Shown piece after piece: positions 1,020-11,566 of a DNA stretch of 38,018 nucleotides. The notes beneath the pieces were generated by a model, which made no database searches, was not told the origin of the DNA, and worked only from the letters and a program-made list of their open reading frames with translations. Origin of the DNA: Acidobacteriota bacterium (GTDB taxonomy: Bacteria; Acidobacteriota; Terriglobia; Acidiferrales; UBA7541); the NCBI GenBank assembly GCA_003223255.1, contig QHYJ01000056.1:1-38018 (forward strand), read 5' to 3'. A program made the position numbers and the translations under genes. The first letter of the stretch is position 1, and each line of letters starts with the position of its first letter.

Positions 1020-1574
1020 ATGACCATGAACCTGACACGAAGAGAGACACTTGCGGGAGCCATTGCGCTGTTGTGCGGAATGGGCGCGGCGGAGGCTCAG
1101 GCACGAGCCGGAATGCCAGGTCATCAAGTTCCGCGCGGCTCCCAATTCGGGGCCGAGCCGGACGCTCATCCCGCGGCAAAGCCGGAATCCCCCGTTGAGT
1201 CGCGGTCTGCGACTGAGCCGGAGGCGCAAGGCGCGGAGCGAGCCGCAGCAGACCTTGTGTTCAAGCACGACTTGCCGAATCTCACCATGGACGATTGGGA
1301 AGTGACGGTCAGTACCGTGGACTATGCGCCGGGAAGAGTGGGCAAGGTGCATCACCATGCGGGGTTCGTGCTGGCGTATGTGCTGGAAGGAAACGTCGTG
1401 ACCAAGATTTCCGGCCAGGAAGAACGAACTTACAAGCCAGGGGAAATGTTCTACGAGCCGCCCGGAAGCACGCACGAAGTGTCACGGAATGCGAGCGAGA
1501 GCCAGCCGGCAAAGCTGCTGGCACTGATCTTCGCGAAAAAGGGCGTGCCGCTGACGATGCCAGGGCCGGCATAA
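1020..1574 (+). CDS. Exported cupin-domain protein
   Basis: A 184-residue protein. Residues 1-27 form a signal peptide with a twin Arg (LTRRETLAGAIALLCGMG, then AEAQA), so export by Tat is possible. Residues 28-80 are a low-complexity Pro/Glu/Ala spacer. The cupin barrel follows: motif 1 is PGRVGKVHHHAGFVLAYVLE, with three His and a later Glu as metal ligands, and motif 2 is KPGEMFYEPPGSTHEVSRNA, with the second-motif His. This is a typical small cupin_2 protein of the periplasm; the substrate is unknown. ATGs at 1020 and 1026 are both possible. A TATAAT lies directly upstream and no Shine-Dalgarno is visible. Confidence 0.8.
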   Translation: MTMNLTRRETLAGAIALLCGMGAAEAQARAGMPGHQVPRGSQFGAEPDAHPAAKPESPVESRSATEPEAQGAERAAADLVFKHDLPNLTMDDWEVTVSTVDYAPGRVGKVHHHAGFVLAYVLEGNVVTKISGQEERTYKPGEMFYEPPGSTHEVSRNASESQPAKLLALIFAKKGVPLTMPGPA

Positions 1575-1728: not shown

Positions 1729-2757
1729 TTAATGTTTCGCTGCCGGGGCGGAGTAGATTTTGGTTTCGGGATGAAATTCGGACCAGGCAAACCAATATTC
1801 CGGCTCCAAAATGAGCGATTCGAGCTGTGAGCCCTTCAACGAGCCGGAAAGGCACTTTCCATAGGCATCCCAACGCGAGCCGGTTTCCTTGTCGGTGAGT
1901 TCGCTAGCGTCCGGGTTGGCGGCGCGGAATTGCAGGGTCTTCCCTTTTGCGCGCGCAATGAAGGCCGTGGTGGTGTCGGACGCCGGCTGATGGACGAGAA
2001 GAACCGGCTGGCCGCCGAGATCGTCGTGGATGACGCGCGCTTCGCGAAGAATGGAGAGGGGAAATGCTTCGCTCGATTCGCCGACGTCGAGGCCGAGAAT
2101 CATGGTGCGCGGCTTGAGGCGGTCGTCCACGCGGAGGACGCCGGGAGGCGCGGAACCTGCGCCAGAGAGCCCGCGGCGGATCATTTCGTTCTTTTCGGGG
2201 ATGCGCTCGGCGTAGCCGGGCAGAGGCTTTAGCACCAAAGTGTCCGGATGCAGGCGGCGCCATTCCTTCCAATCCGTGAGAAGAAAAGGATACAGCTCGA
2301 GGTGCTCGCCTTTGAGCGGCCCGGAAATGGCTTGCAGGCTGGATTGTTGCCAGCGGCTGCCGGTTTCGCGGTCCTGAAAGACCTCGTTGCCGCCGATCAC
2401 GCCGGCGTTGTCCATTTGGAGTTCGCGCCCCTTATTGGCGGCCCTGAACACGAGGGCCGTGTTGCAATAGCTTCACCAGGTGACGGCGATGGGGCCCGAG
2501 GGAGATTGGTCTTCGACGAGGCCGTGCTGCGAAAGAATGGCGGCCGGATAGGCTTTGGCGACGGTACCGGCCATGACGCCGATGACGCGGTCGGGGTCGT
2601 GCAAAAACGTGGCCTCGGAAGCCGAATTAAATTGCGGGGCGTGGACCGCGGTGTACGGCAAGCGCGGCTCGGCTGGCTTTTGCGCGGCGGCGCCTACGCT
2701 CGATGCGAGGGTGGTCGAAGCGATCGCGAGAAGGAACAGGTTTTTCCTGTTGGTCAT
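1729..2757 (-). CDS. Exported DUF3179 protein, candidate selenoprotein (in-frame TGA at 2473-2475)
   Basis: Reading through one TGA gives a 342-residue protein. Residues 1-25 are a Sec signal peptide (NLFLLAIASTTLASSVGAAA). The rest is a DUF3179 protein (function unknown) built of two similar halves: VIGVMAGTVAKAYPAAIL in the first matches ILGLDVGESSEAFPLSIL in the second, and FRAAN and DRETGSRW/DKETGSRW recur in both. Codon 95 is TGA, in the order VTW-TGA-SY-C98-NTALVF. DUF3179 proteins normally read VTYCxxCNTA here, so TGA replaces the first Cys of CxxC. The frame is the same on both sides, with no indel. A hairpin follows at once. The start at 2757 has AGGGA 8 nt upstream. If TGA is not decoded, the gene is a nonsense mutant giving a 94-residue stub. 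Confidence 0.75.
2447..2463 (-). promoter_or_regulatory. Candidate bacterial SECIS hairpin
   Basis: On the coding strand, 9 nt after the TGA, AACACG pairs perfectly with CGTGTT around the 5-nt loop GCCCT. The loop starts 15 nt after the TGA and its first base is G. Bacterial SECIS elements, as I recall, are in-gene hairpins at about this distance with a G at the start of the apical loop. The stem is only 6 bp (three G-C, three A-T), so chance is not excluded. Confidence 0.45.
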
Positions 2758-3011
2758 GAGCAGTCCCTTTTGCTTTGGAAATTGCGACCGCATGCAGACT
2801 CCATTGTGCACTCAGGCAAAGCAAAAGGCTACTTTCGGAAAGTTCCGACGCGATGCAAAGAAATGAAAAGAGCAGACAATTTGGCAGGGCAAGAAGTGGC
2901 TCTGCAACCGAGGGTTGTAACCGAACAGGGCGAGGAGTCGTTTGCTTAAGTAAGAAGGCCAATGTTCGAAATTCGAAAATGGAAAGAGCAGGAGATAGAA
3001 AGGCGTGATGT

Positions 3012-8450: not shown

Positions 8451-11280
8451 CTAGTTTTTGGCGGAGGCGGCTTTGAGTTTCTTTAGTTCCCTCTCGTGGT
8501 CAAGATAGGTTTCACCCTTGGAGATCCACAGCGGGGTGGGCTCGTCCTTCAAGTAGTGACCAAACCACTGAAAGATGCGGCGCTGGTAGTCGACTTGATT
8601 GGCTTTTTTGCGCAGGCCATGGTCTTCGCCAGCGTATTCGATGAGGACGACATCTTTCCTTGCGCGTCGGGCGATGTTGTAGAGCTCGACGCCTTGGTGG
8701 AAGAAGACGGTGCCATCGCTGTCGCCGACTTCGATGAGCAGGGGCGTGGTCATGCTCGATACGCCGAAAACCGCAGAATTACGGATGTAGGCCTGGAGGT
8801 CTTCGTAGAGAGGAACTTCCATACGCTGTTGGCCGGTTTCGATGTGATCAGTTTCGGCGATACCGGAACTCCAATGATGGTTGCCGTAATTGCTGACGAG
8901 GTCGGTGATGGGCGCGCCTGCGACGGCGGCGGCGAAGAAATTCGTGGTGTGGGTAGCGAGATACGTAGTGTCGAAGCCGCCCCAGGAATGGCCCATGATG
9001 CCGATTTTCTTAGCGTCGATGACGCCCATTTGGATGACGCGCTTCGCGGCAGCCGTAACGCAATCGACGACGGAAACGCCCGGATCGCGCGGCTTGAAAA
9101 GAATGTCCGGCTCGAGAACGAAGTAGCCGTGGCTGTTCATGGCGGTCACGTTGTAATAGTTGCGCTCGGAAGGCGCGCTGTAGCGGTGCAGGCCGTCGGA
9201 AAGCTTTTCGTACATGTAAATGATCATGGGATATTTCTTGGAGGAGTCGTAGCCCGCGGGATAGAAGAGCGCGCCTTGCAGGCGTTCGTTGTGGCTGTTT
9301 TTGTACTCGATGAGCTCTTCGCGGCCCCAGGCGTAATTGCTTTGGAAGGGATTTGTCTTGGTGACCGCTTTCGCACTCTTCAAGTCTGGGCCGGCGATGA
9401 AGGCGTTGGGTGATTCGACGAAAGTTTGCTGAACGTATTCGAAGACGTCGGCGTCTTTGGCCTTCGCGAGCCGATCGAGGCTTTTGTCGAGCAGAACGAG
9501 ATGTTCTTCAGTGAGGGCGCCGGAAGCACCGGGCTGGAGGCGAGCGAAACCGGATTTCTTCGACCTGATGCCAAACAAGCTGAGATAGATGGGCTTGCTG
9601 GTGTCGATCCATGGAACCGTCAGGCGCAACCTGCCAGAGATCGAATTTGTCGTAGAGGATGACCGCGGCGTCATCCTTGGTCCAACCAGCAATGCCGAAG
9701 GGCGGCTTCTGCTTGATGGTCCAGTCGGATTCGCGATCCACAAAGGAAGTTTGGGCGTTTTGGGTGATGTTGACGACGGCGTGTGTGGCGGTGTTGACGG
9801 TCCAATAGTGGTCGTCGTGGAAATAGAGGAGGTAGCGGCCGGCGGGACTTTCTTCGAGGTAGTGGTCGTCGTTGAGGCCATCCTGAATTTTGGTGCGTGC
9901 GCCGGCGGAAACGTCGACGAGAGCGATGTCCGCGGCAGGACGGCCGATGGAGCGTTCCATGGCGTAGGCGGACCAGTCGGCGGAAACGGCAAGAGATTGG
10001 TGCTTGAGAGGAGTGATGCGCTCGTCCAGGTCCTTGCCGAGGGGAACGAGAGAATTTTTGCCGAGGTGCCAGGCAGCGAGCATGTTTTTCTGGCGGTCGT
10101 TCTTGGCGTTGAGTTTTTGTTTGGGCATGACTTCGACGTCGCGCCAGTTCCAAACGTCCACGGCGGGCTGCTCGTCTTCGTCCTTGTTTTTGGCGGCACC
10201 GGTGTCTTTTGCGGAGGCATCGTTGGACTTCGAAGCATCAGCGGTCTTTGTTGCGTCCGCAGCGGGAGTTGCAGGTTTTGCGGGTTCGCCGATTTTGTCC
10301 TCCCATTTGGCGAGGCCGAGGAAAACGATGCCGCCGTCGAGAGCCCACTCCGGCTTGTGAAAAGAAACCGTGCGAGTGGCCGCAGGAAATTTTGCGTCGG
10401 CGGTCGGATCATAGACGGGAGCCGATTCGGAGGATTGGCCGAGATTGGTCCAAGCGAGGGCGACTTGCGTGGGGCCTTCGTGGTGATCGTCGGATTTGGC
10501 GCGGAGGACGGCCAGGTCGGCGCTTTTCTTGCGCCAGGAAAGGCCGGAGTATACGGAGGCGGAGGTGTCGAGAACGCGGACGGCGGCAGTGTGCACGTCG
10601 AAGATTTGGATACCGTTGCCGGTTTTGTCTTCGGCGTTGATGGTCATCGCCAGGAGCGTGCCGGTTTTGGGCACATTCTGCCAAGCGTATTCGGAGACGT
10701 TACCGAAAGAAGCGTCACGGCCGGTAGAAAGCTGGCGAAGAAGCAGCGCGGCGCCGGCGGGAGTGTCGTCCACTTCGGAGGCGTCAGAGGAATCCTTTTT
10801 GTCGGAATCCTTTTTTTCGGGCGGGGTGCGGCGCATGGCGAGCCAGGCACCGTCAGGGCTGAAGGCAAAAGACTCGATGCCGTCGACGGTGGACAGATCG
10901 CCGGTGGTGAGATTCAGGATACCGATTTTCTTGGGGACGGGCTTTTTCTCTTTCTTTAGCTTTTCTTCCTGCGCTTCGGAAATGCCGATGGAATAGGCGA
11001 CCCAGCGAGAGTCGGAGGAGAAGGCGGGTTCGGCGCCGAAGGCGATGGTCTTGGTGGTGCCGTCGGCAATGTTGGTGACGCGCAGTTCGTTGTTGCGATT
11101 CGAGCGAGTGATGGCGTAGGCGAGCCATTTGCCGTCGGGAGAAAGGCCGCCGTATTCGCGGAACGTGGCGAGAGATTCCCACTGGCCGTAATCGGAAGGC
11201 GGGACGGGAGGTTTGGATTGGCCGTAAAGGGAGATTGCGGTTGCAAGAGTTAAGGATGCGGTGATAACCGGGAGTCGCAT
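8451..11280 (-). pseudogene. S9 family peptidase (prolyl oligopeptidase type), frameshifted
   Basis: The N-terminal frame (start 11280, AAAGG upstream, signal peptide RLPVITASLTLATAISLYG) encodes the beta-propeller, with WD40-like blades such as EYGGLSPDGKWLAYAITR and a long Ala/Asp/Lys-rich insert near 10170-10290. It ends in frame at LYDKFDLWQVAPDGS, about 9615. The C-terminal catalytic frame resumes with IDTSKPIYLSLFG and holds the hydrolase: nucleophile GIMGHSWGGFDTTYLA, then GDSDGTVFFHQG (Asp region) and GEDHGLRKKANQ (His). From my memory of the family, some tens of residues should lie between these segments, so this is probably a deletion plus frameshift rather than a one-base slip. It would otherwise be a periplasmic oligopeptidase. 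Confidence 0.75.
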
Positions 11281-11329
11281 GGCTGGCCTTTCTTGGAGAT
11301 TCGAGAGCGCCGCCACGCGGATCGCCGGG

Positions 11330-11566
11330 CTATGCGGGCGGAGCAGGCGGATTGTGAACCGATTTGGAGAGGTAAGCAAGAGCGCCTGCACGCCCTTTGA
11401 AGTGCCTCCCAGGAAAAGTCTCGCGATGGCAGTTGGCTAGGCGAATTGGAGGCATTTCCGGGCCGCGCTTACCGGCGACCAGTTCCGATAAAGGAGTGCG
11501 CGTGGCGCCGAGCGCAGCGGCAGCTTCCGTGATGGTGAGTCCGAGAGGTTCGACTTGACGCGACAA
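11330..11566 (-). pseudogene. Decayed HigA-type antitoxin
   Basis: A short frame whose first half matches the HTH core of HigA addiction-module antidotes: EPLGLTITEAAAALGATRT, then LSELVAGKRGPEMP and IRLA. Intact HigA begins with a G.IL.EEFL segment before this core, which is missing here, and continues GG..E.WL..Q..YDL after IRLA, which is unrecognisable here. The first codon is TTG, without a ribosome binding site. No higB toxin is nearby. It lies 14 nt behind the stop of the alanine racemase gene. Probably a dead remnant of a toxin-antitoxin pair. Confidence 0.5.

Follow-up and report, generated by a model that had tools for sequence, protein, structure and literature searches.

An acidobacterial DUF3179 gene with an in-frame TGA as a probable new member of a known selenoprotein family

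Introduction

Two reviews (PMC9312934, example MBW1804167.1; PMC13188914, example MDJ0986319.1) include the domain family DUF3179 (pfam11376) among the selenoprotein families and give its motif as UxxC/T; the former of them cites for it a work from 2007 that, judged by its title, deals with a symbiotic deltaproteobacterium. The string 'Acidobacteri' does not occur in the main texts of PMC9312934 and PMC13188914, and our literature search found no published mention of selenocysteine (Sec)-containing DUF3179 proteins in Acidobacteriota. Here we analyse such a gene in a stretch of 38,018 nucleotides from an Acidobacteriota bacterium (contig QHYJ01000056.1, GCA_003223255.1), which is referred to as the window. 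The preliminary description of this DNA, made from the sequence alone, was not aware of DUF3179 as a selenoprotein family; given the entries in the two papers, the window gene has to be regarded as a new, strongly supported example of a known one. Like the DUF3179 selenoproteins as reviewed there, it belongs to the same Pfam family and has its Sec at motif position 1; it differs in coming from Acidobacteriota, where the Sec form is the commoner one among the pieces we fetched and where UxxA motifs also occur. DUF3179 proteins of the Cys type (CPLC or CTLC) share the family and the alignment column, and three of them are orthologues within the close clade of the window gene, but they have TGC or TGT in place of the TGA and no conserved hairpin. 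What our analysis adds to the known family is the occurrence of Sec-DUF3179 in many Acidobacteriota, the UxxA variant, an apparently repeated exchange of Sec and Cys, a predicted Rieske-like tandem fold and a conserved cupin neighbour.

Results

The DUF3179 gene and its in-frame TGA

The DUF3179 gene (Table 1) contains a sole internal TGA in the setting VTW-TGA-SYC-NTALVF. With the TGA read through, the product matches Pfam DUF3179 with an E-value of 8.2e-64 and 216.3 bits against a cut-off of 27, and the matches of each flank alone (7.7e-11 before and 2.4e-41 after the TGA) bear out the earlier view that both sides share one frame and belong to DUF3179. None of the NCBIfam models matched the protein at E-values up to 1. 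We conclude that the gene most likely encodes a DUF3179 (PF11376) selenoprotein, with a probability of about 0.96 for Sec insertion at codon 95 on the sequence evidence, and that the protein would be exported from the cytoplasm via its putative signal peptide. The seemingly broken gene would thus be intact, and the standard ORF list, which splits it into 2473..2811 and 1729..2451, truncates the protein.

Table 1. Coordinates of the features discussed, as positions in the window
Feature	Position	Strand	Remarks
DUF3179 gene with in-frame TGA	1729..2757	minus	ATG at 2757, TAA end at 1729; 342 aa with TGA read as Sec
TGA codon 95 of 342	2473..2475	minus	read as Sec; position 1 of U-x-x-C
Signal-peptide-like N-terminus	2683..2757	minus	about residues 1-25; by eye from the translation
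Shine-Dalgarno-like AAAGGGA	2764..2770	minus	upstream of the ATG; by eye
N-terminal repeat	2215..2652	minus	residues 36-181, with U-x-x-C; Rieske-like fold in the model
C-terminal repeat	1753..2145	minus	residues 205-335, without CxxC; Rieske-like fold in the model
Putative SECIS hairpin	2439..2459	minus	in the coding sequence; CGGCCCT / loop CGTGTTC / AGGGCCG; best supported
Earlier-drawn overlapping hairpin	2447..2463	minus	+10..+15 with +21..+26; weaker covariation
Small cupin (Cupin_2)	1020..1574	plus	signal-like N-terminus by eye; convergent neighbour of the DUF3179 gene

Homologues in 151 genomes, comprising the source genome and 150 relatives, were surveyed. DUF3179 was present in 45 of these with 68 matches, and loci were fetched for 61, the seven omitted ones being short or weak pieces. 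At the column of codon 95, 40 pieces have TGA and 19 have Cys, in agreement with the previous placement of the TGA at the Cys position of the family; of the two remaining pieces, one with Ser is a distant protein (L082) and one with Glu is a C-terminal fragment (L078). The alignment of homologues that the preliminary description had proposed accordingly yielded many members with TGA in this column and a conserved frame downstream. In a tree of 59 DUF3179 sequences, five changes between Sec and Cys are needed, at least four of them forced by well-supported branches, with a warning by the program of long branches; this suggests, as far as sequences can tell, that the exchange has occurred repeatedly.

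Some members stand apart. Four loci (L080, L081, L083, L084) form a distant group with the motif FUPACNTG or FUVVCNTG and a hairpin sequence of their own. Genome G131 has two sister genes, L039 (1693-1737) and L064 (804-848), one with Cys and one with Sec, and the Cys-type sister retains the hairpin letters CGGGCGTAGTTTACGACCCG, which are suggestive of a fossil SECIS left over from a recent change from Sec to Cys. A separate scan of titled genome records provided 34 loci, of which 31 stand in records that name an Acidobacteriota group and three do not (L104, titled Polyangium sp.; L116 and L118, titled bacterium); this set and the 61 pieces overlap in several genes and are not additive. The DUF3179 protein of L104 is of the Sec type and has 61% identity to acidobacterial ones, which may be due to gene transfer or to wrong binning.

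Sec machinery in the source genome and its relatives

The source genome (6.66 Mb, 428 contigs, 97% complete) was searched for selA, selB, selC and selD, as the preliminary description had suggested, and tRNA-Sec, SelA, SelB and SelD are all present. The tRNA-Sec scored 64.9 bits with RF01852 and was assigned type SeC with the anticodon tca by ARAGORN; selB was found with 359.9 bits, over its cut-off, selA with 566 bits and selD with 350 bits, the last with one in-frame TGA of its own in VKAAGUAAK. RF01852 matches below 57 bits, a cut of our own choice, were counted as other tRNAs, and the next-best seven matches in this genome (38.6-46 bits) are Ser, Leu, Trp and Cys tRNAs according to ARAGORN.

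Across the survey, selA was counted as present at E-values up to 1e-60, which gave 127 of the 151 genomes; in 125 the match exceeds the curated cut-off. It was detected in all 32 genomes with a TGA-type DUF3179 compared to 95 of the 119 others (Fisher p 0.0019), and not one TGA copy was found among the 24 genomes that lack a clear selA. Seven of these 24 carry a tRNA-Sec, so that what is missing from these assemblies need not be truly absent, and some of the selA absences may be assembly gaps. As a marker for co-occurrence, tRNA-Sec is not significant (26/32 versus 89/119, p 0.31), since six of the 32 genomes with a TGA copy lack a match of at least 57 bits, also with laxer filters. Among these six is genome G041 (98% complete), which has selA and two TGA-type DUF3179 genes, one of them a weak match, and no clear tRNA-Sec by RF01852. 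On one contig each of two other genomes (G010:C2 and G032:C465), two tRNA-Sec matches above 60 bits are located near each other.

A putative SECIS hairpin within the coding sequence

The best supported hairpin pairs +14..+20 with +28..+34 and has 7 bp, a 7-nt loop with G in second position and a spacing of 20 nt. This is within the limits of bSECIS elements (loop of 3-9 nt, stem of 4-16 bp, G in loop positions 1-2, spacing of 16-37 nt, MFE of -7.5 kcal/mol or lower), and an MFE of -15.3 was obtained for 48 nt counted from the TGA. A hairpin downstream of the TGA had been proposed before and can indeed be drawn; it overlaps the present one, but its loop is 15 nt from the UGA and thereby just outside 16-37, and folding and covariation favour the shifted hairpin at 2459-2439. 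Taken by itself, the window gene shows no significant structure (fold z -0.84; synonymous resampling P 0.13); the support for a SECIS element comes from its relatives.

The alignment of the 40 TGA-type genes, with 38 rows that are distinct, was scored for covariation against 500 shuffles, in which relatedness is not kept. For the main hairpin, 77.8% of the cells are paired compared to 62.2% upon shuffling, 40 cells are changed on both sides compared to 17.4, and the covariation is 0.418 compared to 0.181 (0/500 shuffles in each case) and at most 0.209 when the hairpin is slid. Pairs with double changes, 5 of 7, are no more frequent than in the shuffles (4.5; 291/500). The same columns in the Cys genes are 42.0% paired versus 40.9% when shuffled. 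The earlier-drawn hairpin was rejected as the main SECIS, as it scores below the shifted one in addition to its short distance from the UGA. It still exceeds its shuffles in paired cells (78.5 versus 70.8%), double-change cells (14 versus 4.6) and covariation (0.224 versus 0.133; 0/500 each), although not in pair types (7 versus 7.1), and both overlapping hairpins may have a role.

Within the close clade, 29 Sec orthologues including the window gene, the codons of this segment are nearly frozen at their synonymous positions. On average, the majority codon takes a share of 0.94 at the seven scored codons +5 to +11 and of 0.58 at the 94 scored columns outside +1 to +14, where no column attains 0.95. 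Arg at codon +10 is AGG in 29 of 29 close Sec orthologues versus 24 of the 481 Arg codons at other places in the same genes, and the Cys orthologues (L108, L112, L113) have CGG or CGC at this codon, where, with pairs judged by eye, the stem cannot form. Compensatory stems are found in the clade as CAGCCCT/AGGGCTG (L102, L104) and CGGGCCT/AGGCCCG (L115). More widely, 33 of the 40 Sec genes have a hairpin with a stem of 6 bp or more that follows the loop and spacing rules, and none of the 19 Cys genes does. A single consensus SECIS for all Sec-DUF3179 genes was discarded, as RNAalifold returned no consensus structure over the 40 Sec rows; judged by its letters and most of the single folds, a TYU-TLC group (L053, L066, L069, L071, L072, L076) seems to use a different hairpin.

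Two repeats with a predicted Rieske-like fold

The two halves of the protein match each other by blastp with an E-value of 2e-15 and 30% identity, and by hhalign with 99.7% probability between their profiles, which confirms the earlier observation that the C-terminal half is an internal repeat lacking the CxxC. AlphaFold modeled the whole protein with a pLDDT of 87.6 and the N-terminal repeat alone with 93.8; the models are confident except for residues 1-30 (pLDDT <50 in the whole model). In the whole model, Sec95 closes the strand 88-95 and is followed by a strand at 100-105, by which the U-S-Y-C of the first repeat is predicted to sit on the turn of a beta-hairpin.

Foldseek returned no match with an E-value below 0.001 for either model; ranks 1-6 for the whole model and 1-20 for the N-terminal repeat are Rieske-type chains, with unrelated chains mixed in beyond. 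In VIA-align, the best 50 rows for each model are of Rieske type by their titles, including NirD-type subunits, which we take to be such, with Z of 6.4 to 10.2, where values of 7-8 can be background and the program only re-ranks the Foldseek list. The whole model reaches a top Z of 10.2 (97 aligned, 3.3 A) and the N-terminal repeat one of 8.6 (91 aligned, 2.7 A). Homology to Rieske proteins at the level of sequence profiles was not supported: hhalign of DUF3179 against 23 acidobacterial Rieske domains (from 25 fetched loci) stayed below 1% probability, and the sequence search for a relative with a solved structure gave none at an E-value below 0.7. The protein sequence is also devoid of the Rieske ligand motifs CxH and CxxH. 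As the ligands are absent and profile support is missing, we refer to the fold as Rieske-like and do not class the protein as a Rieske protein. The models thus predict two diverged repeats, each with a Rieske-like beta fold without the ligands of a Rieske cluster. Rieske iron-sulfur domains are the best structural matches of both models, and they differ from DUF3179 by its tandem repeat, the missing CxH/CxxH and a Sec that resides in another motif.

Discussion

Decoding of the in-frame TGA

In the mechanism that we propose, SelB and Sec-tRNA would decode the UGA at codon 95 as selenocysteine, directed by the putative stem-loop which begins within the coding sequence 13 nt past the UGA. Two other explanations of the TGA have to be considered. 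It might be a nonsense mutation or a sequencing error in a decaying Cys-type gene, as the two pieces in the mechanical ORF list would suggest at a glance. A gene in decay would, however, hardly share its TGA column with 40 of 61 pieces, and the part behind the TGA is still DUF3179-like; each of the 39 Sec rows listed (39/39) has one TGA within the DUF3179 domain and no further stop, and the codons that form the hairpin are frozen. The preliminary description had already argued against a chance nonsense mutation, and the TGA common to the relatives and the conserved downstream frame concur with it; we regard such an origin as extremely improbable. Only slightly less improbable is that the UGA is read as an ordinary residue such as Trp or Cys, be it through an altered genetic code or through leaky readthrough. 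The frame is open whichever residue the TGA is read as, which would suit this explanation. But TGA is the ordinary stop of three neighbouring Pfam-matched genes (PEMT, histidine-kinase and beta-lactamase-family), and therefore the code is not reassigned. Moreover, the column alternates with Cys save for the two off-type pieces, all TGA copies detected lie in genomes with selA, and the genes have conserved a hairpin of the SECIS type. Of the findings by which the preliminary description would have been refuted, neither an absence of Sec machinery nor a lack of homologues with TGA in this column was encountered. Sec insertion at codon 95 thus remains by far the preferred reading.

Redox or metal binding

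Sec is mostly used at redox-active positions. Of the 61 pieces, 59 have Sec or Cys at motif position 1; at position 4, the 40 Sec copies have Cys (32), Ala (5) or Thr (3). Due to the UxxA and UxxT forms, a selenenylsulfide is not a feature of the family as a whole, and the constant Sec next to an optional second thiol points to a nucleophilic selenol. Most likely, the selenol of the Sec would attack a substrate with a thiol, disulfide or peroxide group in a redox reaction, which the second Cys of the motif, where present, would resolve. We therefore infer that the DUF3179 protein probably has a Sec-based redox role outside the cytoplasm. With Sec inserted all the same, its Sec/Cys knuckle might instead bind a metal together with other conserved residues, the protein being structural or a metal carrier, which would rival the redox role only and not the Sec insertion. 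Such an explanation gains from the similarity of the fold to Rieske iron-sulfur domains and from the fact that beta-hairpin turns of the CPLC type are common metal knuckles. The lack of any CxH or CxxH motif argues against it, as do the usual place of Sec at redox-active positions and the pattern within the motif, in which position 4 is other than Cys in 8 of 40 Sec and 1 of 19 Cys copies at a nearly invariant position 1. We consider metal binding unlikely, and a redox role of the Sec the better reading.

The Sec form outnumbers the Cys form among the fetched pieces (40 versus 19), by which DUF3179 is well suited for asking why exported proteins of these bacteria use selenium. The pairs of Sec and Cys forms, the UxxA forms and the link to a cupin render its function testable.

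The neighbouring cupin

The small cupin gene that converges with the DUF3179 gene was followed in the 34 titled loci (L085-L118) by direct tblastn, as clustering of ORFs was cluttered by antisense frames. A cupin match lies beside DUF3179 in 27 loci in three gene arrangements: convergent downstream in 15 (60-78% identity), downstream in the same direction in nine (37-47% identity), one of which adjoins a DUF3179 fragment, and upstream in the same direction in three loci with the Cys form (34-39% identity). The less similar matches may be other cupins. No cupin was found by tblastn at L094, L104, L105, L114, L115, L116 and L118, where L105 ends 459 bases past the gene. As the arrangement varies and the closeness is nevertheless kept, a functional link between DUF3179 and the cupin is suggested. 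As a tentative and rather doubtful extension, it might be speculated that in Acidobacteriota DUF3179 is an exported, Sec-dependent redox enzyme with a duplicated Rieske-like fold devoid of the Fe-S cluster, which acts together with the small exported cupin on a common substrate. If true, this would represent a new type of enzyme on an old electron-transfer fold, with a selenol at the turn.

Elsewhere in the window (8451-11391, minus strand), what appears, judged by eye from the translations, to be a single S9-type peptidase is divided between two overlapping frames, 8451..10412 and 9508..11391, which suggests a frameshift or an assembly error.
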